A DNA stretch of 34,450 bases, from NCBI GenBank assembly GCA_903874255.1, contig CAIQRN010000074.1, positions 1 through 34,450 on the forward strand, given 5' to 3'. Position 1 is the stretch's first letter, and every line of letters begins with the position of its first letter. This document shows positions 20,758-31,243 of this stretch, one piece after another. Under the pieces are notes generated by a model, which was not told the DNA's origin, did not search any database, and was given only the letters and a program-made list of their open reading frames with translations. The stretch is from an uncultured Actinomycetes bacterium (GTDB lineage: Bacteria; Actinomycetota; Actinomycetes; Nanopelagicales; Nanopelagicaceae). A program made the position numbers and the translations under genes.

Positions 20758-21267
20758 ATGCGTAATAGGGGTATGAGCAAACGAGAGTTTGAGGATTTCT
20801 ACCTCGCAAATAGAACCCCTTGCTTTCGGGCGCTTTGTGTAACTGTTCCAAGCTTTGCCGAAGCAGAAGAGTTAGTAGCCGAGGGCTTCACCCGCGCCTA
20901 TGCCAACTGGAATACGGTGCGCAAGCATCCAGCGCCATCTGCTTGGGTAGTTCGAACTGCACTTAATCTGCACCGCGATAACTGGCGCAAGAGAAATACT
21001 TCTAAGCGCCATTTAGTTGCCGTATCAGAAAGCTACGAGGATCAATCTGAAATGCTCGATCCAGCTTTGCTACGTCAGCTCAAACAACTTCCAGAACAAC
21101 AGCTCTTAGTAATTGTTCATCGAGTCTTGCTTGACCTATCAACTGAACAAACTGCAATTGCAATGGGAATTGCCTCTGGAACCGTATCTACTCATTTAAA
21201 ACGAGGGCTCGCCTCTTTGCGTGATCTCTTGGAACCACAGACTCAAAAGGAGGCTATCAATGAGTAA
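20758..21267 (+). CDS. SigE-like ECF RNA polymerase sigma factor
   Basis: A 169-residue ECF sigma factor of the actinobacterial SigE family type. Region 2 spans about residues 10-80 (FEDFYLANRTPCFRALC...AWVVRTALNLHRDNWRKR) and region 4 about 110-160 (LKQLPEQQLLVIVHRVLLDLSTEQTAIAMGIASGTVSTHLKRGLASLRDLL). The start may be the ATG at 20758 (AAGGAAA 10 bases upstream) or the ATG at 20773. The downstream membrane protein overlaps by 8 bp and is the probable regulator. A repeated motif with AATAGGGGTAT sits across the start codons and recurs at 22163. Confidence 0.85.
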   Translation: MRNRGMSKREFEDFYLANRTPCFRALCVTVPSFAEAEELVAEGFTRAYANWNTVRKHPAPSAWVVRTALNLHRDNWRKRNTSKRHLVAVSESYEDQSEMLDPALLRQLKQLPEQQLLVIVHRVLLDLSTEQTAIAMGIASGTVSTHLKRGLASLRDLLEPQTQKEAINE

Positions 21268-22078
21268 TCAATTTAACCCACATGATGAAATGACCGAAAG
21301 GGAAACAGAATTGTTATCTAAGAAACTATTAGCAAAATTTTCGAAAGTTACATCCAACGAACCAGCACTGAATTTTTCAAGCACTTCAGGAAATAAGGCA
21401 AAACTTGGTTGGATAGGAGCGGTTGCTGCAGTTGGAATCGCAGCCCTGGCCTTTAACATGACTTCAGGTGTAGCACCGACAACATGGGCAGCTGATCCAA
21501 CGGATCTAACTGCCGCGGAAATTAAAACTATCAGTGCGCTCTGTGTTGAAACTATTGCAGGACCTGCAATGCCAGGTACTGAAGGTGCCGTTGGTGTTGA
21601 AGAACCTGGCGTGAAAGTAGTTCCAGATTCGCAAGACCCTAATCAAAACGCTGTGGTCGGCAAGATGCAGGACTCAACTATTCCGGGTGCTTCTACTCTT
21701 CCCCCACTCTTTGCTTTTGATTTTCGTGACGGGAATGGTTTCGCAATGTATGTAGATGAAGCAACTGGCGCTTCAGTAACTTGTAACATTGAATCTGATG
21801 GAGACGGTTTTAAGACAACCGGTTTCACAAGTTCACAAGCTTTAGCAAGCAATAAACTTGTCGTGGCTTCAATGTTAGTAAGAGGAAAATCATTCACATC
21901 GGCTATCGGATCTTTAGTTGATGGAGCAACACATGTAGAGCTACGTGCTAAGGGCTTTGAAACAGGTCACGCAAGCGTATTTGGCAATAACTGGGCAATC
22001 TTCTGGCCAGGATTTGAAAATGCCTCAATAGTTCAGCTTGATGATTCAGGAAAGATTCTCGACGAAACAAAGTTATAA
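21260..22078 (+). CDS. Sigma-factor-linked membrane protein, putative anti-sigma factor
   Basis: A 272-residue protein with about 50 cytoplasmic residues, one membrane helix (roughly 50-68, GWIGAVAAVGIAALAF) and an extracytoplasmic domain of about 200 residues with two cysteines (ISALCVET and VTCNIES). I recognise no domain. The AAGGAGG ribosome site is 7 bases upstream of the ATG at 21260, and the start overlaps the sigma gene stop by 8 bp. This arrangement is typical of ECF sigma/anti-sigma pairs, so it may hold the sigma factor. It lacks the usual HxxxCxxC zinc anti-sigma motif, so the function is inferred only. It could alternatively be a sensor or a target protein. Confidence 0.5.
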   Translation: MSNQFNPHDEMTERETELLSKKLLAKFSKVTSNEPALNFSSTSGNKAKLGWIGAVAAVGIAALAFNMTSGVAPTTWAADPTDLTAAEIKTISALCVETIAGPAMPGTEGAVGVEEPGVKVVPDSQDPNQNAVVGKMQDSTIPGASTLPPLFAFDFRDGNGFAMYVDEATGASVTCNIESDGDGFKTTGFTSSQALASNKLVVASMLVRGKSFTSAIGSLVDGATHVELRAKGFETGHASVFGNNWAIFWPGFENASIVQLDDSGKILDETKL

Positions 22079-22245: not shown

Positions 22246-22467
22246 ATGAAGGCACGCATATTTGAGTGGCTTGGCGTTGTTACCGCCATTGTTTATTCGC
22301 TCCTAGTAGCTGCAAATATTGGTGCTGAGTTCATGGGCTTTACTTTGCTGCTGACATCATCTGCCCTGATTGGAATTTGGGCATATTTAGGCAAACATAA
22401 AGGAATTCTTTTCTTGCAGTTTTTCTACGCCGCTGCCGGAATCATCGGAATGATTCGCTGGTTCTAA
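22246..22467 (+). CDS. Small three-helix membrane protein next to carotenoid genes
   Basis: A 73-residue protein made almost entirely of membrane helices (about 8-25, 29-46, 52-70), with MKARIFEWLGVVTAIVYSLLV at the start and FLQFFYAAAGIIGMIRWF at the end. The end pattern slightly recalls the last helices of PnuC-type permeases, as a half-sized version, but this is only an impression. No function can be assigned. Its stop abuts the GTG start of the CrtA-like gene (TAAGTG), so the two are co-translated. It is the first gene of the carotenoid-modification run. Confidence 0.65.
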   Translation: MKARIFEWLGVVTAIVYSLLVAANIGAEFMGFTLLLTSSALIGIWAYLGKHKGILFLQFFYAAAGIIGMIRWF

Positions 22468-23124
22468 GTGATAGTTGCCTATTTTTGGAAAATATCACCC
22501 CGAAAAATTCCCTTCGCACTTTTTGCAATGGCTTCCGACCGAATTTATCTAAAGGCTTCTACCAATGTGGGCTTCTTTAAATCTTTAGGCACTGGCAAAG
22601 GTGAAACCTTCACTCCTTCTGATGCAAATACTTTGCGCTGGGGAGTGATTGTTGAGGTAAAAAATATTGAAGAGTTCGATCACTCGCCAGTAGTAGAGAG
22701 ATGGCGCAAGAATTCAGATCATGAATTTCGTGCCGTTATCGAGCCGATTTCATCTCATGGACAATGGTCATCCAAGCAACCATTTGAACCCACGATTTCA
22801 CAATGGGACGGCAAAGTGATTGCGATTACTCGGGCACGAATTGCATTGCTTCAAAACCTAAAATTTTGGCGAGCGGTTCCTCCAGTTACCGCTTCACTCA
22901 AAACTGCTCCAGGTTTGATCTCGGCGATAGGAATCGGTGAGGCGCCTATCGGCCTCCAAGGAACATTTTCTATTTGGGAATCCCCTGCCGCTTTGCGCGA
23001 TTTCGCTTATCGCGGATCGGCACATATTGCCGCGATTGATGCCACCGCCAAGTACAAATGGTATTCAGAAGAGCTCTTTGCCCGCTTTGCAGTGCATGAT
23101 ATTCGAGGTTCGATTAATCCTTAA
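22468..23124 (+). CDS. CrtA-like carotenoid monooxygenase (spheroidene monooxygenase family)
   Basis: A 218-residue protein with the CrtA-family pattern: GIGEAPIGLQGTFSIWES (about 156-172), then LRDFAYRGSAHIAAIDATAK and WYSEELFARFAVHDIRG (about 198-213). CrtA of purple bacteria inserts oxygen at C-2 of an acyclic carotenoid end, giving a hydroxyl and then a ketone. It starts with GTG directly after the preceding stop and lies 27 bases before the CruF-like gene. With CruF, CruG and CrtD neighbours it would act on the non-cyclised end of gamma-carotene or lycopene. Whether it stops at the 2-hydroxy stage or makes the ketone is not visible. Confidence 0.78.
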   Translation: MIVAYFWKISPRKIPFALFAMASDRIYLKASTNVGFFKSLGTGKGETFTPSDANTLRWGVIVEVKNIEEFDHSPVVERWRKNSDHEFRAVIEPISSHGQWSSKQPFEPTISQWDGKVIAITRARIALLQNLKFWRAVPPVTASLKTAPGLISAIGIGEAPIGLQGTFSIWESPAALRDFAYRGSAHIAAIDATAKYKWYSEELFARFAVHDIRGSINP

Positions 23125-23151
23125 GGGGCTCGATAGGGCAGACTTACCACC

Positions 23152-23955
23152 ATGTCGATTCGCCATTACACACCAAGACGACGTCGCTATGGACAGTTAT
23201 CTCAACGCGCAAATGCTTTGTTAATCACAATAGTTTCAATCGCAATCCTCTTGCAAGTTATTTATCCCCTTGCAAGTGGTGAATTCTTAAGACTGCTCAC
23301 AATAAATGTCGTGTACTGGGGCGCTGGTGCCATGCTTTTGCATGCATTACTTACGTATGGTGGCCGCTATGCAATTACTTATTTCTTGTTCACATTCTTT
23401 TTTGCATTAACAATTGAGCAAGTGGGCGTTCAGACGGCATGGCCCTTTGGAGATTATTCTTACTCGAGTGATCTTGGATTGAAAATACTTCACGTACCGA
23501 TGGTTGTTCCATTTGCATGGATCATGCTCGTCCATCCCGTGCTAACTGCTGCCCGCAAAATAGCTGGAAGTTGGGTCTTTTTATACGGCGGAGCATTACT
23601 AATGGCATGGGATTTATTCTTAGATCCACTAATGGTTACCTCGGGCCGTTGGAGTTGGAAAGTAACTGGATCACATGTTCCATTCCAACCTGAAATCCCA
23701 CTCTCGAATACTTTCGGATGGCTTCTCAGTGGAATGTTTTTAATTGGAGTTCTTCACATGATTTTGCCGCGAGAGCGACGCAAAGCTGGGGCAACCTTTG
23801 CAACAACCGATGCCTTCATCCTCTGGACTTTATTCTCAGGCATTTTTGGAAATCTCTTCTTCTTTCACCGTCCCGGCATAGCTCTATTTGCTGGATTTAT
23901 TTTCGGTGCACTATTAACTCCATATTTCTTTACTCGCTGGCTCGGCCGGCCTTAG
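23152..23955 (+). CDS. cruF: CruF-like carotenoid 1',2'-hydratase
   Basis: A 267-residue membrane protein of the CruF/DUF422 family with about seven hydrophobic segments. The family pattern is seen in GVQTAWPFGDYSYSSDLGLKILHVPMVVPFAWIML and WDLFLDPLMVTSGRWSW, including the conserved W-P-F-G-x-Y-x-Y and D-P-x-M. CruF adds water across the terminal double bond of a psi end group, giving a tertiary 1'-hydroxyl. The gene is followed 5 bases later by the CruG-like glycosyltransferase. The exact substrate (gamma-carotene, lycopene or a keto form) is inferred from the pathway. Confidence 0.82.
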   Translation: MSIRHYTPRRRRYGQLSQRANALLITIVSIAILLQVIYPLASGEFLRLLTINVVYWGAGAMLLHALLTYGGRYAITYFLFTFFFALTIEQVGVQTAWPFGDYSYSSDLGLKILHVPMVVPFAWIMLVHPVLTAARKIAGSWVFLYGGALLMAWDLFLDPLMVTSGRWSWKVTGSHVPFQPEIPLSNTFGWLLSGMFLIGVLHMILPRERRKAGATFATTDAFILWTLFSGIFGNLFFFHRPGIALFAGFIFGALLTPYFFTRWLGRP

Positions 23956-23960
23956 TCTTT

Positions 23961-25034
23961 ATGGATTTAATTCTTCTAATTCCCGCGGGGCTTTTATTTT
24001 TTATTGGCCTTATTAATTTTATGACAGTTCGAAATCCCTGGGATTATTCACAAATTGACGAGAAACTCTCAATTCATATTCCGCTTCGCAATGAAGAATC
24101 AAATGTCCAAGCACTACTAGAAAATCTTAGCCAGCAGAAATACCTTTCAAATGCTCAATTTTTCTTTCTTGATGACAACTCGGAAGATGACACTTTTAAA
24201 TTGCTTGAACAGTTCTGCGAACGAGTACCCAATTTTCATCTTCTTTCTGGTGCGGCCCTACCCCAAGGTTGGATAGGAAAAACTTGGGCGCTGCAGCAAC
24301 TTCTTAATGAATCAAGAGGTGAAATTGTCGTCACCATTGATGCCGATGTTCGCCTTCAATCTGATGCCATCAGTAAAGCTGTTAATTTGCTTAAGAGCAC
24401 TCAACTAGATTTTCTCTCACCATATCCTGCTCAACTTGCCCACACATGGTCAGAAAAATTAATTCAACCGCTTTTGCAATGGTCTTGGTTTTCTACCGTT
24501 ATCTTGCGCTTTGCCGAAAGAAGTTCGATGAGTTCAACCGTTGTTGCAAATGGACAGTTCTTTGTTGTCCGTAGATCAGTGCTTGAGAAAATTGGTGGAT
24601 ACCGGGCAGTTGCGAATAAAGTTTTAGACGATGTGGCACTAGGGCGCGAACTTGTTAAATCTGGTTCTCATGGCACGGTGGCAAATGGTTCGTTGATTGC
24701 GTCGACTCGAATGTATTCGTCATGGGCAGAGATTCAAGCCGGTTATGGAAAATCACTTCATAGCGCATTTGGCTCTCTCGTTGGTTCGTTCTTTGCAATT
24801 ACCTTTTTGTTTGTCACTGGAATTGCACCTCTTATCGCCGGTATCACAGGTTCAGAGGCAGGCTGGTATGCATTTGCTGCCGTTACTCTTACACGCACAA
24901 TGAGTGCAATCAAGGCAGGAAAATCTGGCTTAGATGGATTTCTGCATCCTATTTCTAGTGCCCTGCTTATTTATTTAATTATTTACTCATGGCTCATGCG
25001 CGGTCACATTCAATGGAAAGGCCGCACCGTATGA
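23961..25034 (+). CDS. cruG: CruG-like family 2 glycosyltransferase
   Basis: A 357-residue membrane-anchored GT-A enzyme. It has an N-terminal helix (about 2-20), the donor-site start HIPLRNEESNVQALL, the DDNSEDD loop (71-77) and a DAD metal motif at 127-129. Further on are FFVVRR and the LDD acidic motif near 222-224, then two or three C-terminal helices. CruG is the carotenoid 2'-O-glycosyltransferase that completes myxol glycosides in cyanobacteria; the adjacent CruF supports this call. The ATG at 23961 follows the CruF-like stop by 5 bases; the frame is open further upstream but overlaps cruF. It overlaps the next gene by 4 bp (ATGA). Confidence 0.75.
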   Translation: MDLILLIPAGLLFFIGLINFMTVRNPWDYSQIDEKLSIHIPLRNEESNVQALLENLSQQKYLSNAQFFFLDDNSEDDTFKLLEQFCERVPNFHLLSGAALPQGWIGKTWALQQLLNESRGEIVVTIDADVRLQSDAISKAVNLLKSTQLDFLSPYPAQLAHTWSEKLIQPLLQWSWFSTVILRFAERSSMSSTVVANGQFFVVRRSVLEKIGGYRAVANKVLDDVALGRELVKSGSHGTVANGSLIASTRMYSSWAEIQAGYGKSLHSAFGSLVGSFFAITFLFVTGIAPLIAGITGSEAGWYAFAAVTLTRTMSAIKAGKSGLDGFLHPISSALLIYLIIYSWLMRGHIQWKGRTV

Positions 25035-26545
25035 AGATTGTTGTGATCGGCGCCGGAGTTGGCGGAATGATGGCTGCAGCTCGATTAGCTAAAGCCGGAC
25101 ATCAAGTCGAGGTATATGAAGCTTCTAATCGCACCGGAGGAAAACTACACACTGAATGGATTGGCAAAGTAGCTTTCGATACCGGTCCATCTCTTCTGAC
25201 ATTGCCCGCTGTGTATAAAGATTTCTTCCAGCGGACGGGAAAACATCTGGGACTCATGTGTGAAATAAAGGCAGTTGACCCTTCATTTGATTATAGGTTT
25301 GCCGACGGAACCAATGTTCAATTCGCAAATCTTTCCAGACATCAAACGCTCAATAACCTGCGCACTGCATATGGCGATGAAGTTGCTCACCAATGGAATG
25401 AATTGATGTATCGCGCGGAAAAAATGTGGGATGTCTCGCGTGAGCCATTCATTGAAAATGAACTACGTTCTGCATTTTCATTATTAAAACGACGCTCGCT
25501 TTTACGTGATTTGAAAATAATTGCACCTTGGAAATCGCTCCGGAAACTGTCCGAAGAATTACTACCCGACCAACATCTGCGCTTCATTTTAGATCGATAT
25601 GCGACATACAGCGGCTCTGATCCTCGTAAAGCACCTGCCGTGCTTTCGACTATAGCTTTTGTTGAAGAAAGCTTTGGCGCCTGGCACATCAAAGGTGGGC
25701 TTGGAACTTTAGCCGCGTTAGTTCATGAACGAGCGGAAAAAGTCGGCGTTATTTTCCATTTGAACTCCCCGGTTGCCGCAATAAATCTGCGCAAAGCTAA
25801 AGCCAATGGAATTACTTTAGATAGCGGAGAAATAGTTGATGCCGACGCAGTCATTGCCAATGCCGATGCTTCACTCATTTACAACACTCTCATCACGGGC
25901 AAAATCAGGAGAATTAAGAAAGAACGTAGAAATATCGCTAAAGCCGAGCCCTCTTTAGCGGGTTTTTCATTGCTTCTTGGAATTCGTAAAGATGAAACCG
26001 AAGCACTTGCACACCACACCGTGCTCTTTCCTGAAAACTATGATGCCGAATTTGATGCGATTTTCACACATAAGAAACCTGTTGAAAAACCCACAATCTA
26101 TATTTGCGCACCAAATGATGCCGCGATGACAAAAGATGAGAAGTTAGAAAGTTGGTTTGTCTTGGTAAATGCACCTGCTCATGGTGCTGATGGTTTTAAT
26201 TGGGACGATAAAGTTTTCGCTCAGAACTATGCCAACTCCATCATTGATCAAATTGAATCCCGAGGTATTCCTGTTCGAGCGCGACTTGAATCTCTCACAA
26301 TTCGAACGCCCGCAGATTTGGAAAACGCCGTTCGCGCTCCGGGAGGTTCGATTTACGGTACATCAAGTAACGGCGCTCGAGCAGCATTTATGCGAGCGAA
26401 GAATCGTTCACCAATCAAGAACCTCTACTGTGTGGGCGGCTCTGCTCATCCTGGTGGTGGGTTGCCTCTTGTTGGCTTGAGTGCTGAAATGGTTGCTAAC
26501 GCAATTGGGAATGCGCAAAACGCAAAACCATTAACAGGCCACTAG
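25031..26545 (+). CDS. CrtD-like carotenoid desaturase (phytoene desaturase family)
   Basis: A 504-residue FAD-dependent amine-oxidase-fold protein. The dinucleotide motif is VVIGAGVGGMMAAARLAKAG (about 4-23) followed by the VEVYEASNRTGGKL loop. The GPSLLTLPAVYKDFF and YATYSGSDPRKAPAVLSTIAFVEESFGAWHIKGGLGTLA segments and the C-terminal PGGGLPLVGLSAEMVANAI are typical of CrtD and other CrtI relatives. CrtD introduces a 3,4-double bond near a 1-hydroxy or methoxy end. As a separate crtI lies 1.8 kb away, this copy is more likely a late desaturase. The final 50 bases overlap the 3' end of the convergent gene on the other strand. Confidence 0.75.
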   Translation: MKIVVIGAGVGGMMAAARLAKAGHQVEVYEASNRTGGKLHTEWIGKVAFDTGPSLLTLPAVYKDFFQRTGKHLGLMCEIKAVDPSFDYRFADGTNVQFANLSRHQTLNNLRTAYGDEVAHQWNELMYRAEKMWDVSREPFIENELRSAFSLLKRRSLLRDLKIIAPWKSLRKLSEELLPDQHLRFILDRYATYSGSDPRKAPAVLSTIAFVEESFGAWHIKGGLGTLAALVHERAEKVGVIFHLNSPVAAINLRKAKANGITLDSGEIVDADAVIANADASLIYNTLITGKIRRIKKERRNIAKAEPSLAGFSLLLGIRKDETEALAHHTVLFPENYDAEFDAIFTHKKPVEKPTIYICAPNDAAMTKDEKLESWFVLVNAPAHGADGFNWDDKVFAQNYANSIIDQIESRGIPVRARLESLTIRTPADLENAVRAPGGSIYGTSSNGARAAFMRAKNRSPIKNLYCVGGSAHPGGGLPLVGLSAEMVANAIGNAQNAKPLTGH

Positions 26546-27116
26546 TTTGAAGTAGCAAGAACGCTACAGAAACTGCAAGAACGCCAGGAATATTCAAATG
26601 CCACATAAGTAAGACCATGAATAAGAAAATTGCACGTACTGGACGCTCTGCGGGCGTTACTACTCCGATATCTTTTATTTCAAGCGAGACAAGTTTTGCG
26701 CGTGCGTACTCTTGAAATGATGCAAGGCACCACAGAGTGATTACAAGCCAGGCGGGAACTCCAATTACATATAGCGCATAAAGCCAAAGCGCTTCGCTTA
26801 TTCGATCAACGACGGAATCAAGAGTTGCTCCCCAAGCGCTTTGGCGCTTCTGAAAAATTGCAACGCTGCCATCAATCCCATCGCAAAAAAGTGAGAAGAC
26901 AAGAAAGAAAATAGCCCACCAACTTGTAGCCATTAAAGCTGTTGCCGCAGCAGCGAGCAACCCCAACAAAGTCAGCACATTTGGTGAAATTCTCAATAAA
27001 GTTGCGACTAATCCGAAGCGGTATGAAATTTTAAGCCACCAAGCAACTGCACCTTCTACGGGTGCATCGCTATGCAATGAGCTCCACGTTTGGGTGAATT
27101 CTTGCTTACTTAGCAT
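26496..27116 (-). CDS. CDP-alcohol phosphatidyltransferase family protein
   Basis: A 206-residue membrane protein with about six hydrophobic segments. The metal and CDP motif is DGIDGSVAIFQKRQSAWG, then ATLDSVVD, with acidic residues at D79, D82, D100 and D104. The normal motif has Arg after the Ala (D-x2-D-G-x2-A-R-x8-G-x3-D-x3-D), but here it is Ile at 87, an unusual change. The family joins a CDP-alcohol to a second alcohol, for instance making phosphatidylglycerol phosphate or phosphoinositol. Its position between carotenoid blocks may be chance. It converges on the CrtD-like gene with a 50-bp overlap and is divergent from crtE. Confidence 0.72.
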   Translation of the reverse strand: MLSKQEFTQTWSSLHSDAPVEGAVAWWLKISYRFGLVATLLRISPNVLTLLGLLAAAATALMATSWWAIFFLVFSLFCDGIDGSVAIFQKRQSAWGATLDSVVDRISEALWLYALYVIGVPAWLVITLWCLASFQEYARAKLVSLEIKDIGVVTPAERPVRAIFLFMVLLMWHLNIPGVLAVSVAFLLLQTSGLLMVLRFAHSQLR

Positions 27117-27223: not shown

Positions 27224-28300
27224 GTGAGTTCACAGACAAAGTCGGAATTGCAAGAAGTCCGGGATGGCGTAGAAATTGAGTTAGCCCAATTCATGCGCGA
27301 TCAGCAGAGTTATCTGCAGTCAATCTCAACTGAACTCAATCCCGTATCGCAAGCCCTTTCTTCTTTTCTGCTCGATAGTGGCAAGCGTCTGCGCCCACTT
27401 TTTGCTTATGCGGGACTAACCAGTGCAGGAGCTTCATTATCGCCAGCTACGACTAAGGCGATTTCTTCCTTAGAACTTCTGCAAGCCTGTGCACTTATTC
27501 ATGATGATTTGATGGATGGTTCAGATACTCGGCGCGGAAAACCATCTATACACCGCCACTTTGAATCTATTCATGTGCAAGATGAGCTAGAGGGATTTGC
27601 TCCAGCCTATGGATTGGCGTCAGCGGTTTTGCTTGGTGACTTAGCGCTAGTTTGGTCTAATCAACTTTTAAATAACTCGGGAATATCAACTGAGGAATTG
27701 CAACGAGTCCTACCAATTTTTGATGAAATGCGCGTTGAGTTGATGGCGGGGCAGTTCTTAGATATTCATGAACAGACACAAAAGAATACAGATTTAGCCA
27801 GATCAATGAAGATTGCCCGATATAAATCAGGCAAGTACACAATCGAACGCCCCTTACATATGGGCGCCGTGTTATCGCACAATTCAACACCAGAACTTCT
27901 ACATGCGCTATCTAATTATGGATTACCACTTGGTGAAGCTTTTCAATTTAGAGATGACTTGCTAGGTGTGTTTGGTGATCCAAGTGTTACGGGCAAGCCC
28001 GCTGGTGATGATTTACGCGAAGGCAAGCGCACGGCATTAATTGCTATGACTGATACCCGTTGTACCGACGCAATGCGTGAAGAAAGTAGAAAATACTTTG
28101 GAAAAAATGATCTAGATGAAAATGGAGTAGCAATCTTGCAAGAAATGATTGTCTCTACAGGGGCAAAGACTGAACTTGAAAAACTAATAGATGAATTAAC
28201 TGAACGCGCCATGAAAGCAGTTGATAACCCGGTAATTGCCGATGGTGCACGGGAAACGCTAATTGAGTTAGCAACAATTGCAACAAGACGGAGTATGTAA
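27224..28300 (+). CDS. crtE: Geranylgeranyl diphosphate synthase (polyprenyl synthetase)
   Basis: Soluble trans-prenyltransferase of 358 residues. The first aspartate-rich motif is HDDLMDGSDTRRG (about residues 92-104). The second is FQFRDDLLGVFGD. It should make GGPP for phytoene synthesis. The GTG at 27224 is the only usable start: an in-frame stop lies at 27203. No Shine-Dalgarno is seen. It is followed directly by crtI (adjacent, 0 bases) and crtB, as one operon. Chain length cannot be measured from sequence, but the neighbours favour C20. Confidence 0.9.
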   Translation: MSSQTKSELQEVRDGVEIELAQFMRDQQSYLQSISTELNPVSQALSSFLLDSGKRLRPLFAYAGLTSAGASLSPATTKAISSLELLQACALIHDDLMDGSDTRRGKPSIHRHFESIHVQDELEGFAPAYGLASAVLLGDLALVWSNQLLNNSGISTEELQRVLPIFDEMRVELMAGQFLDIHEQTQKNTDLARSMKIARYKSGKYTIERPLHMGAVLSHNSTPELLHALSNYGLPLGEAFQFRDDLLGVFGDPSVTGKPAGDDLREGKRTALIAMTDTRCTDAMREESRKYFGKNDLDENGVAILQEMIVSTGAKTELEKLIDELTERAMKAVDNPVIADGARETLIELATIATRRSM

Positions 28301-29785
28301 GTGGTTGCACGTGTAAAAGGTCCAACAGATCACGTAATTATTGTCGGTGCCGGCCTTGCTGGATTAAGTGCAGCGTTACGTTTAGTAGGGGCAGGTCGCA
28401 AAGTAACGGTGATCGAGCGCGAAGGCGTTCCTGGCGGGCGAAATGGTCTCTTAAACAAAGATGGCTATTCATTTGATACCGGTCCGACGGTTTTAACAAT
28501 GCCATCGCTAATTAACGATGCTTTTAACTGCGTTGGTGAAGATATGAAAGATTGGTTAGAACTTAAACCACTTACTCCTTTATACCGAGCTTTTTATGCC
28601 GATGGTTCACAGTTAGATGTGCACTCCAATACCGCTGAAATGGAAGCTGAAATAGAGAAAAATATCAGCAGTGCAGAAGCTGCGGGATATCGTAAATATG
28701 TAGATTTTGTTACCAAGCTTTATAAATATGAAATGAATGATTTTATTGATAGAAACATTGATAGCCCGCTCAATTTGCTTACCCCCAATTTAGCTCGCTT
28801 GATTGCCCTAGGTGGCTTCCGCAAACTCTCTCCCAAAGTTAATCAATTCATGAAAGATCCACGTTTACAAAAGGTCTATTCATTTCAGGCCATGTATGCA
28901 GGGGTTAGCCCACAACAGGCTTTAGCTATCTATGCGGTGATCGCTTATATGGACTCGGTTAACGGTGTATTTTTTCCTAAAGGCGGAATGCATGCAGTTC
29001 CGCGCGCCCTTGCCGCAGCAGCCGAAAAACATGGTGTGGTTTTCAAATACAACACCACGGTTTCAAAGGTTGAGGTAAATAACGGACGCGCAAAGGCGGT
29101 CATCACCGAATCCGGTGAGCGTTTTGAATGCGACGCGGTAATCCTTAATCCAGATTTGCCTGTGGCATATCGCGACTTATTAGGTAAAACCCCTGCATCG
29201 GTGAAGAGGTTGAAATACTCACCGTCATGCGTCACTTTGCTTATTGGCTCAAATAAGAAATATGACTTTGCAGCGCATCACAACATTCACTTCGGGCATT
29301 CTTGGGATGGTGTGTTTGAAGAGTTAATCACGCAGAAGAAATTGATGAGTGACCCCAGCATCTTGGTAACAGTGCCAACGCATGATGACCCCGAATTGGC
29401 ACCACCCGGCAAACATTCGTATTACGTGCTCTTCCCGACTCCAAATTTAGATTCAGATATTGATTGGCACAAACAAGCTGGTCCATATCGAGATCAAATG
29501 ATTAAAACAGTCGAGGAGCGCGGGTACGAAGGTTTTGGCGACTCAATTGAAACTGAAGTCGTGACAACTCCCCTAGATTGGAAAAATCAAGGAATGGAGA
29601 TGGGTGCACCATTTGCAAGCGCACATACATTTTTCCAAACAGGTCCCTTTAGACCACGCAACATGGCGCAGGGCCTTGAAAACGTGGTCTTTGCAGGTTC
29701 TGGAACTCAACCCGGCGTTGGTGTGCCTATGGTTTTAATCTCAGGTCGCTTGGCCGCTGAACGAATTGTTGGACCAGTTAAGTAA
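28301..29785 (+). CDS. crtI: Phytoene desaturase
   Basis: FAD-dependent desaturase of 494 residues converting phytoene to lycopene or a close intermediate. It has the N-terminal VIIVGAGLAGLSAALRLVGAG FAD motif, FDTGPTVLTMPSL, the YAGVSPQQALAIYAVIAYMD middle segment, FPKGGMHAVPRALA, and the C-terminal FAGSGTQPGVGVPMVLISGRLAAERI signature. It starts with GTG at the base after the crtE stop and ends at the base before the crtB ATG, so the three genes form one unit. The number of desaturation steps is inferred as four. Confidence 0.93.
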   Translation: MVARVKGPTDHVIIVGAGLAGLSAALRLVGAGRKVTVIEREGVPGGRNGLLNKDGYSFDTGPTVLTMPSLINDAFNCVGEDMKDWLELKPLTPLYRAFYADGSQLDVHSNTAEMEAEIEKNISSAEAAGYRKYVDFVTKLYKYEMNDFIDRNIDSPLNLLTPNLARLIALGGFRKLSPKVNQFMKDPRLQKVYSFQAMYAGVSPQQALAIYAVIAYMDSVNGVFFPKGGMHAVPRALAAAAEKHGVVFKYNTTVSKVEVNNGRAKAVITESGERFECDAVILNPDLPVAYRDLLGKTPASVKRLKYSPSCVTLLIGSNKKYDFAAHHNIHFGHSWDGVFEELITQKKLMSDPSILVTVPTHDDPELAPPGKHSYYVLFPTPNLDSDIDWHKQAGPYRDQMIKTVEERGYEGFGDSIETEVVTTPLDWKNQGMEMGAPFASAHTFFQTGPFRPRNMAQGLENVVFAGSGTQPGVGVPMVLISGRLAAERIVGPVK

Positions 29786-30658
29786 ATGGATCAGTTAGAA
29801 GCGTCCTACGCCGAATGCAAGAGACTTAATTCACTGCATGGCAAGACTTATTACTTAGCAACTTTGTTGCTACCTCGCGCCAAAAGAAAGTACGTACATG
29901 CGCTCTATGGTTTTGCGCGATATGCAGATGAAATTGTAGATGATCTTGAATCCACACTTTCAATCGAGCAAAAGAGCGAAGTTTTAAATAATTGGGGAAG
30001 TAAAATACTGGCTGATCTTAAAAACGGTACAAGTGAAGATGCGGTTGGAAGAGCGTTGATTGATACTGTCAATACTTTTGGTATTCCACTTGCTCACTTT
30101 GAAGCTTTTCTCAAATCAATGACCATGGATTTAACCGTGCAGGAATACCAAAGTTATGACGACCTCATGGAATATGTATACGGCTCAGCGGCAGTAATTG
30201 GTTTGCAAATGGTTCCTGTCTTAGGAGCCCTTGATGAGGGAGCTTATGAATGTGCGCAGAAATTGGGTATTGCATTTCAATTAGCGAATTTTATTCGTGA
30301 TGTTAATGAAGATCTAGATCGCGGCCGAATCTATTTGCCAATCGAAGAGTTAGCCGAGCATGGCGTAACTCGCGAAATGCTCGAAGAACGAACTCTGACT
30401 CCACAAATCATCAATGCATTGAAGTTTCAAATTGCCCGAGTTCGTCGACTTCAAAAAGAGGCCGAACCAGGGATTTTGATGCTCTCTCCGTCGAGTCGAC
30501 CTTGCATAGAAGCAGCAAGTGAGCTCTACTGCGCAATTGTTGATGAAGTCGAAAAAATTGGTTACGACATTTTCAATAAACGTGCCAAGACTTCAACCCC
30601 TAGACGGTTGCGAGTATTTATCCGCGCTTATCTGAAGCGCCTAGCCGTATCCAATTAG
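29786..30658 (+). CDS. crtB: Phytoene synthase
   Basis: Condenses two GGPP to phytoene. The 290 residues include both metal motifs: YADEIVDD (about 47-54) and DVNEDLDRGRIYLP (about 172-185), plus YVYGSAAVIGLQM. It begins at the base after the crtI stop. The last 41 bases overlap the stop end of the convergent lycopene cyclase subunit gene at 30618-30658, a sign of tight packing. Confidence 0.95.
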   Translation: MDQLEASYAECKRLNSLHGKTYYLATLLLPRAKRKYVHALYGFARYADEIVDDLESTLSIEQKSEVLNNWGSKILADLKNGTSEDAVGRALIDTVNTFGIPLAHFEAFLKSMTMDLTVQEYQSYDDLMEYVYGSAAVIGLQMVPVLGALDEGAYECAQKLGIAFQLANFIRDVNEDLDRGRIYLPIEELAEHGVTREMLEERTLTPQIINALKFQIARVRRLQKEAEPGILMLSPSSRPCIEAASELYCAIVDEVEKIGYDIFNKRAKTSTPRRLRVFIRAYLKRLAVSN

Positions 30659-30920
30659 TTAAAACTGATAGGACCAAAGCAAACCCGAATAGCAAATCTT
30701 CCAAAGGTGCAGCTGCGATTCGAACACCAATTATTGACTCTGGGTTATACATAACAATATTTCTAGAGGTCAGCCACCAATTTGTGAGAAGTTGAAAACT
30801 CAAAATAATGGCATAAGAGACCCAGAAAACTTTTCGTTTGAGAAGTTGAGTTCCGATTAGATACATGTCGAAAGTGATTGCGACTACAACCGCGCTTGTC
30901 GCCAATTGCGTGTACGTCAT
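30618..30920 (-). CDS. crtYd: Lycopene cyclase subunit, CrtYd-like
   Basis: A 100-residue membrane protein with three predicted helices. The APLEDLLFGFALVL motif is the acidic membrane motif of the small heterodimeric lycopene cyclase subunits. It forms the second half of the cyclase with the upstream CrtYc-like protein (overlap 4 bp). The pair would form beta rings on lycopene. Actinobacterial homologues CrtYe/CrtYf form epsilon rings or C50 products; the sequence alone does not exclude those. Confidence 0.83.
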   Translation of the reverse strand: MTYTQLATSAVVVAITFDMYLIGTQLLKRKVFWVSYAIILSFQLLTNWWLTSRNIVMYNPESIIGVRIAAAPLEDLLFGFALVLSVLTNWIRLGASDKRG

Positions 30921-31243
30921 GGCTCAACCTGCCAGTGTCTCCTCTTTATGCGCACGGCTTCAATTGTCATAAGCGCAGCGATTGGCACTACTAAGAAAAA
31001 GAAGTACTCCTCTAGCGGAATACACCATGGTCCATAAATACCCAGAATCTGAGTTTTATCAAAGCTCCAATGCCCATGAGAAATTGCATACTTATCCCAA
31101 GCTATAAAAACAAAGGCAACTGGAGCAATCGCAAATATCACTCGTTTGACTTGCTTAAGCACTCCAACTTTCAAGAAAATCTCTAGCCAGAAAGATCCCA
31201 CGACCGTGAAAACAATCATCACTAGGTACCCATATTTTTGCAC
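30917..31243 (-). CDS. crtYc: Lycopene cyclase subunit, CrtYc-like
   Basis: A 108-residue protein with three membrane helices. WDKYAISHGHWSFD and IPLEEYFFFLVVP are the conserved segments of the CrtYc family, with the PxEE acidic motif. It works with CrtYd as a heterodimer. The GTG at 31243 (MQKYGYLVMIVF) is the probable start; the start region lacks a Shine-Dalgarno, so a leaderless transcript is possible. The gene is divergent from the riboswitch-controlled permease gene, and its promoter must lie in the shared space. Confidence 0.84.
   Translation of the reverse strand: MQKYGYLVMIVFTVVGSFWLEIFLKVGVLKQVKRVIFAIAPVAFVFIAWDKYAISHGHWSFDKTQILGIYGPWCIPLEEYFFFLVVPIAALMTIEAVRIKRRHWQVEP

Follow-up and report, generated by a model that had tools for sequence, protein, structure and literature searches.

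Related carotenoid pathways and the acI cluster

In cyanobacteria, myxol 2'-glycosides (myxoxanthophyll) carry their sugar on C-2' and have a hydroxylated ring; they are made with a CruF-type hydratase and a CruG-type transferase and a CrtA-type enzyme is not known to belong to the described route. Here we consider a cluster of carotenoid genes, among them CrtA-, CruF-, CruG- and CrtD-like genes, in a stretch of 34,450 nucleotides (the window; GenBank CAIQRN010000074.1, which is contig C74 in a 93%-complete draft assembly totalling 1.57 Mb). The genome belongs to acI (Nanopelagicaceae, Candidatus Planktophila-like), and the acI assignment in a preliminary description of the locus holds. We consider it probable that the product of this cluster is an orange pigment, namely a monocyclic, deoxymyxol-like (plectaniaxanthin-type) C40 carotenoid with a glycosylated psi-end, the sugar probably sitting on C-1'; it would thus differ from the cyanobacterial compounds in both sugar position and ring.

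The flavobacterial deoxymyxol/myxol pathway of Nonlabens spongiae and Flavobacterium P99-3 resembles the proposed one in its cyclase, CruF, CrtD and CrtA-type 2-hydroxylase, in equal order (PMC11855829), and the last of these enzymes is traced there to Rahlert et al. 2009. In E. coli, Nonlabens CrtY, CruF and CrtD gave 1'-hydroxytorulene, and the addition of CrtA-OH gave deoxymyxol (PMC11855829). Since this series is proven, the chemistry of a CruF/CrtD route in which CrtA makes a 2'-hydroxyl is established. The preliminary description, where CrtA was known from purple bacteria, had overlooked the flavobacterial CrtA-type 2-hydroxylase and its demonstrated part in myxol synthesis. Unlike the flavobacterial pathway, that of acI has a heterodimeric CrtYc/CrtYd cyclase, a glycosyltransferase and no CrtZ-family match.

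In Salinispora, the genes for sioxanthin are said by Richter 2015 to lie in separate subclusters. Sioxanthin, like the proposed product, has a 1',2'-dioxygenated, 3',4'-didehydro psi-end with one sugar, but its other end is aromatic (phi) and its sugar is established at C-1' (PMC8469146). Salinixanthin, the xanthorhodopsin antenna of Salinibacter/Rhodothermus, is likewise a monocyclic carotenoid glucoside with a 2'-hydroxyl, differing from the proposed product in its 4-keto ring and acylated sugar. The salinixanthin-type glucosides of R. marinus include forms that lack the ring ketone as well as forms that bear it, and CruF, CrtD and CrtA are unrecognisable in this organism (PMC5822342).

New here are the count of crtA against that of blh, the co-retention of the cyclase, and the natural crtA-loss genomes that bear on the sugar position. 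The acI carotenoid branch itself has probably been noted in the literature already; Dwulit-Smith et al. 2018 reportedly described, in all acI clades, secondary carotenoid branch genes implying an unnamed complex carotenoid, and other papers cite that work for acI carotenoid synthesis. We take it that this branch is very likely the present cluster.

Proposed pathway

CrtE, CrtB and CrtI would produce lycopene, on which CrtYc/CrtYd would form one beta ring (gamma-carotene). At the psi-end, CruF would add water across C-1',2', CrtD would desaturate C-3',4', and the CrtA-like enzyme would hydroxylate C-2', yielding deoxymyxol (C40H56O2). The CruG-like enzyme would then transfer one sugar, to the C-1' oxygen more likely than to that at C-2', and the resulting hexoside would be C46H66O7 (~730.48 Da). 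Each of these reactions is proposed by analogy with characterised relatives; gene content, conservation, co-retention and losses were observed in the genomes themselves.

The set of CrtE, CrtB, CrtI, lycopene cyclase, CruF, CrtD and a CrtA-type enzyme is complete at the locus (Table 1), with the cyclase halves named by sequence and position; PF05834 lycopene cyclase gives weak N-terminal matches alone in this genome. The CrtA-, CruF-, CruG- and CrtD-like proteins are all clear homologues of the families after which they are named. By family score, the CrtA-like gene is a homologue of CrtA below equivalog level, the CruF-like protein passes the broader Caroten_synth family, and the CruG-like protein has conserved DADxR and (E/D)D motifs. 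The CrtD-like protein scores higher against NF045637 than against crtI_fam (TIGR02734), the opposite of what is seen for the CrtI encoded from 28301. Of the route put forward in the preliminary description, one part is supported by the Nonlabens series and by the retention of crtYc with crtA: a monocyclic carotenoid whose psi-end is hydrated, desaturated, oxygenated at C-2' and probably bears a sugar. Its placing of that sugar on the 2' oxygen is less favoured.

Conservation of the cluster

When a single genome was scanned for each species, a CrtA relative turned up at 63 loci, the majority in the lineage of the window genome, one in Gordonia and a few in Bacteroidota. Wherever loci cover the region, the order crtA-cruF-cruG-crtD, CDP-alcohol gene, crtE, crtI, crtB is kept, and it persists at ~52% CrtA protein identity and lower; the same gene order, which was to be sought in other acI genomes, is thus found order-wide. 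Compared with close relatives, the genes are under purifying selection (ratio of nonsynonymous to synonymous substitution rates, dN/dS, of ~0.05–0.2 where dS is computable, with dS near saturation). Given this shared order and the selective constraint on the genes, the arrangement is not a product of chance.

Among 151 genomes of the order, each at least 85% complete, crtYc is the most frequent of four genes (145 genomes), followed by crtA (138), rhodopsin (122) and blh (PF15461; 71). With roughly two genomes that carry crtA for each one that carries blh, the branch explains the full carotenoid pathway of many strains unable to make retinal. Genomes with crtE, crtB, crtI and a cyclase but no blh have been recorded before, with no use stated (PMC5301498), and the present branch supplies one.

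Elsewhere, a crtE-crtA-cruF-cruG-crtD run is present in Gordonia sp. ABSL49_1, and an equal gene set, differently ordered, in Nonomuraea. On a plasmid of Deinococcus taeanensis (L068:5881-6666), a CrtA-like gene is annotated as hypothetical, with no further carotenoid genes in the stretch read.

Cyclase retention and the ring

In genomes without blh, crtYc is kept in 68/70 of those with crtA vs 6/10 of those without it (Fisher p=0.0017, which ignores phylogeny), a comparison in which missing contigs can remove linked genes jointly. The window genome is itself blh-negative in the PF15461 search and crtYc-positive. A cyclase kept without blh is therefore not retained for retinal alone, and this co-retention supports a monocyclic product.

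If CruF, CrtD, CrtA and CruG acted on lycopene ends instead, the product would be acyclic (oscillol-like) and CrtYc/CrtYd would serve beta-carotene/retinal synthesis only. The placing of crtYcd fits such an arrangement, since the pair is on the opposite strand and some genomes have it beside blh rather than in the crt cluster, but an acyclic product is distinctly unlikely given the crtYc of nearly all crtA-positive, blh-negative genomes, the window genome included, and the frequency of a second crtYc in blh-positive ones. Indeed, blh is present in 31 of the 33 genomes with multiple crtYc copies. The acyclic reading had been raised by loci L017, L020 and L021, which lack crtYcd, and was set back by the position of crtYc beside blh elsewhere and by its retention without blh. 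The crtYc/crtYd pair adjoins blh in L092, L094 and L084–L086, as a second or sole copy.

The ring of the monocyclic product is probably unsubstituted, because neither the CrtZ family (PF04116) nor the CrtW family (PF00487) gave a match in the window genome, control genomes being positive for both; CrtO-type ketolases were not separately searched. The CrtZ-type hydroxylase that would mark a 3-hydroxylated ring, as in myxol, is accordingly not among the matches in this genome.

Position of the sugar

Three genomes of genus g2 (G007, G069 and G081) show no crtA match and retain cruF, cruG, crtD, crtE, crtI, crtB and crtYcd. G007 consists of 3 contigs and is 100% complete; in G069 the genes lie partly on separate contigs. 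The CruG proteins of all three are ordinary, orthologous members of the acI CruG tree. A CruG dependent on the CrtA-made hydroxyl would be expected to be lost or altered in such genomes, and the simplest reading of its retention is that the acceptor is the C-1' hydroxyl provided by CruF. These natural deletion genomes thus help to tell the two candidate attachment sites apart, and the sugar is probably on the C-1' oxygen rather than on that at C-2'. Glucosyl esters of Gordonia terrae carotenoids are described as 1'-glucosides. Such esters are cited in PMC9680422. In sioxanthin, from the actinobacterium Salinispora, glucose sits at C-1' and the 2'-OH is free (PMC8469146).

According to the preliminary description, CrtA would make the acceptor and the sugar would go to the 2' oxygen. 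CruG would then glycosylate the C-2' hydroxyl of the same backbone to a 2'-O-glycoside as in cyanobacterial myxoxanthophyll, and the best specific transferase model is indeed that of the 2'-O-glycosyltransferase CruG (NF045692); myxol 2'-glycosides are known products of cyanobacteria, and the title of Graham and Bryant 2009 names a myxol-2 fucoside. We regard this position as the less likely one, and as somewhat improbable overall, because the score against that model is far under its cut-off (141 of 600), CruG survives the absence of crtA, and the known actinobacterial compound, sioxanthin, is a 1'-glucoside.

A further alternative is that CruG acts on a hopanoid (HpnB-type) or other lipid acceptor, so that the pigment would be free deoxymyxol. 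The HpnB model scores 116 bits, near the 141 of the CruG model, and the gene diverges faster than its neighbours, but in the loci read it always lies between cruF and crtD, and it is gone from the examined genomes without carotenoid genes, which makes a non-carotenoid acceptor highly doubtful.

In sequence identity, cruG reaches 65–69% where crtD reaches 82–86%, which might reflect differing sugars.

CrtA-like and CruF-like enzymes

The CrtA-like protein aligns end to end with CrtA of Rhodobacterales and CrtA-like proteins of Bacteroidota, with 27 invariant columns. Its predicted structure (predicted local distance difference test score, pLDDT, 88) has a dimeric alpha/beta-barrel fold, the best match in a fold search being a heme aldoxime dehydratase (template-modelling score ~0.60), and the invariant His186 could be a heme ligand. 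No solved structure matching CrtA or CruF by sequence was found. Were the enzyme a 2'-ketolase as in purple bacteria, the product would be a 2'-keto compound without a sugar at C-2'. Its family does contain spheroidene monooxygenase, and the Rhodobacterales alignment spans the full length; the company of a CruF-type hydratase, CrtD and a glycosyltransferase, however, recalls hydroxylase pathways, and the tree parts acI from the Rhodobacterales clade (with weakly supported deep branches and the characterised CrtA-OH not included), so that we give a ketolase very little credence and retain the 2'-hydroxylase assignment.

No phytoene synthase match was obtained in four genomes (G044, G111, G114 and G122). 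In three of them, 8–9 of 27 otherwise invariant CruF residues are changed; one of these changes, shared by G111 and G114, puts His in place of Asp154. Since CruF decays in these three genomes without phytoene synthase, it appears to be tied to carotenoids. In all four (L108–L111) cruF is retained beside crtE (G044:C46:10216-11013; G111:C105; G114:C40; G122:C26).

Several points weigh against the proposed product. None of the CrtA-, CruF-, CruG- and CrtD-like proteins (0/4) reaches the cut-off of its own equivalog hidden Markov model, and the literature examined gave no structure for an acI pigment. All three genomes that have cruG without crtA belong to one genus and probably reflect a single event, an unrelated 2'-hydroxylase may operate in them, and the nearest named transferase family (NF045692) is a 2'-O-transferase, which favours C-2'. 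Retention of crtYc could also be explained by beta-carotene itself. Finally, G044, without phytoene synthase, retains all 27 conserved CruF residues.

Possible role of the pigment

The window genome encodes an actinorhodopsin-type protein, whose Gly149 aligns with Gly178 of Gloeobacter rhodopsin, there required for carotenoid binding. Across genomes, crtA and rhodopsin are associated (p=0.0036, ignoring phylogeny), and 22 crtA-positive genomes have no rhodopsin match. A role of the pigment solely as a rhodopsin antenna is weakened by these 22 genomes, and because of them it is safer to speak of a general role in protection or in the membrane: the compound is likely a polar membrane pigment and photoprotectant.

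The Gly149 match and the R. marinus glucosides with and without ring ketone nevertheless make an antenna for actinorhodopsin possible, and the cluster provides a defined candidate pigment for it. Specifically, a non-keto monocyclic deoxymyxol 1'-glycoside, that is, the salinixanthin scaffold minus the ring ketone, might dock on actinorhodopsin as a light-harvesting antenna, retinal-importing lineages included, a proposal that we consider speculative and distinctly improbable. In many lakes, acI are said to outnumber all other bacteria, and the proposal, if true, would concern a group that ranks among the most abundant of freshwater bacteria.

Cluster layout and the 73-aa gene

Re-reading the open reading frames confirmed the five genes of the preliminary description, from the 73-aa gene to crtD, with their coordinates and spacings of 0, 27, 5 and -4 bp.

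Table 1. Genes of the carotenoid cluster and its surroundings, with positions in the window and family scores
Feature	Position	Strand	Remarks
73-aa membrane protein	22246..22467	+	PF04973 15.7 bits, below cut-off of 27.3
CrtA-like carotenoid oxygenase, proposed psi-end 2'-hydroxylase	22468..23124	+	GTG start, spacing 0; NF045923 (spheroidene monooxygenase CrtA equivalog) 151.8 bits, curated cut-off 300
CruF-like carotenoid 1',2'-hydratase	23152..23955	+	27 bp spacing; PF04240 (Caroten_synth) 113.6 bits, cut-off 25; TIGR03460 93.4 bits; NF045693 (gamma-carotene 1'-hydroxylase equivalog) 50.8 bits, cut-off 400
CruG-like GT2 glycosyltransferase, proposed carotenoid glycosyltransferase	23961..25034	+	5 bp spacing; NF045692 (2'-O-glycosyltransferase equivalog) 141.3 bits, cut-off 600; PF00535
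CrtD-like 1'-hydroxycarotenoid 3',4'-desaturase	25031..26545	+	4-bp overlap with cruG; NF045637 331.6 bits, cut-off 580; TIGR02734 304.6 bits, cut-off 238.1
CDP-alcohol phosphatidyltransferase, between two crt runs	26496..27116	-	PF01066; same site in relatives
CrtE-like prenyl diphosphate synthase	27224..28300	+	PF00348
CrtI phytoene desaturase	28301..29785	+	TIGR02734 530.9 bits
CrtB phytoene synthase	29786..30658	+	PF00494 228 bits
CrtYd, half of heterodimeric lycopene cyclase	30618..30920	-	short, convergent to crtB, paired with crtYc; named by sequence and position; kept in relatives
CrtYc, second cyclase half	30917..31243	-	named by sequence and position

The run of five holds for its four crt genes, which are conserved, whereas the 73-aa gene is linked to them in about half of the congeners. 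It adjoins crtA in 10/19 genus-level loci (L003–L021), where its reading frame stops directly before the crtA start, and was not found beside crtA in loci more distant than these. The gene itself is strongly constrained (dN/dS ~0.02), and its product, probably with three membrane helices, is 94–99% identical in four relatives, far above the downstream crt genes; it has a weak, sub-cut-off likeness to half of an NMN transporter (PnuC). As its linkage to crtA is not constant, the gene was set aside as a pathway member and is probably outside the carotenoid pathway.

A promoter and terminator scan gave a signal no greater than chance. Throughout the lineage, crtD and crtE are separated by the convergent CDP-alcohol phosphatidyltransferase gene. 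Immediately before the cluster, on its upstream side at 20758-22078 of the window, lie a sigma-factor-like gene and a next gene that is perhaps its regulator, in a stretch that is much shorter in L003.

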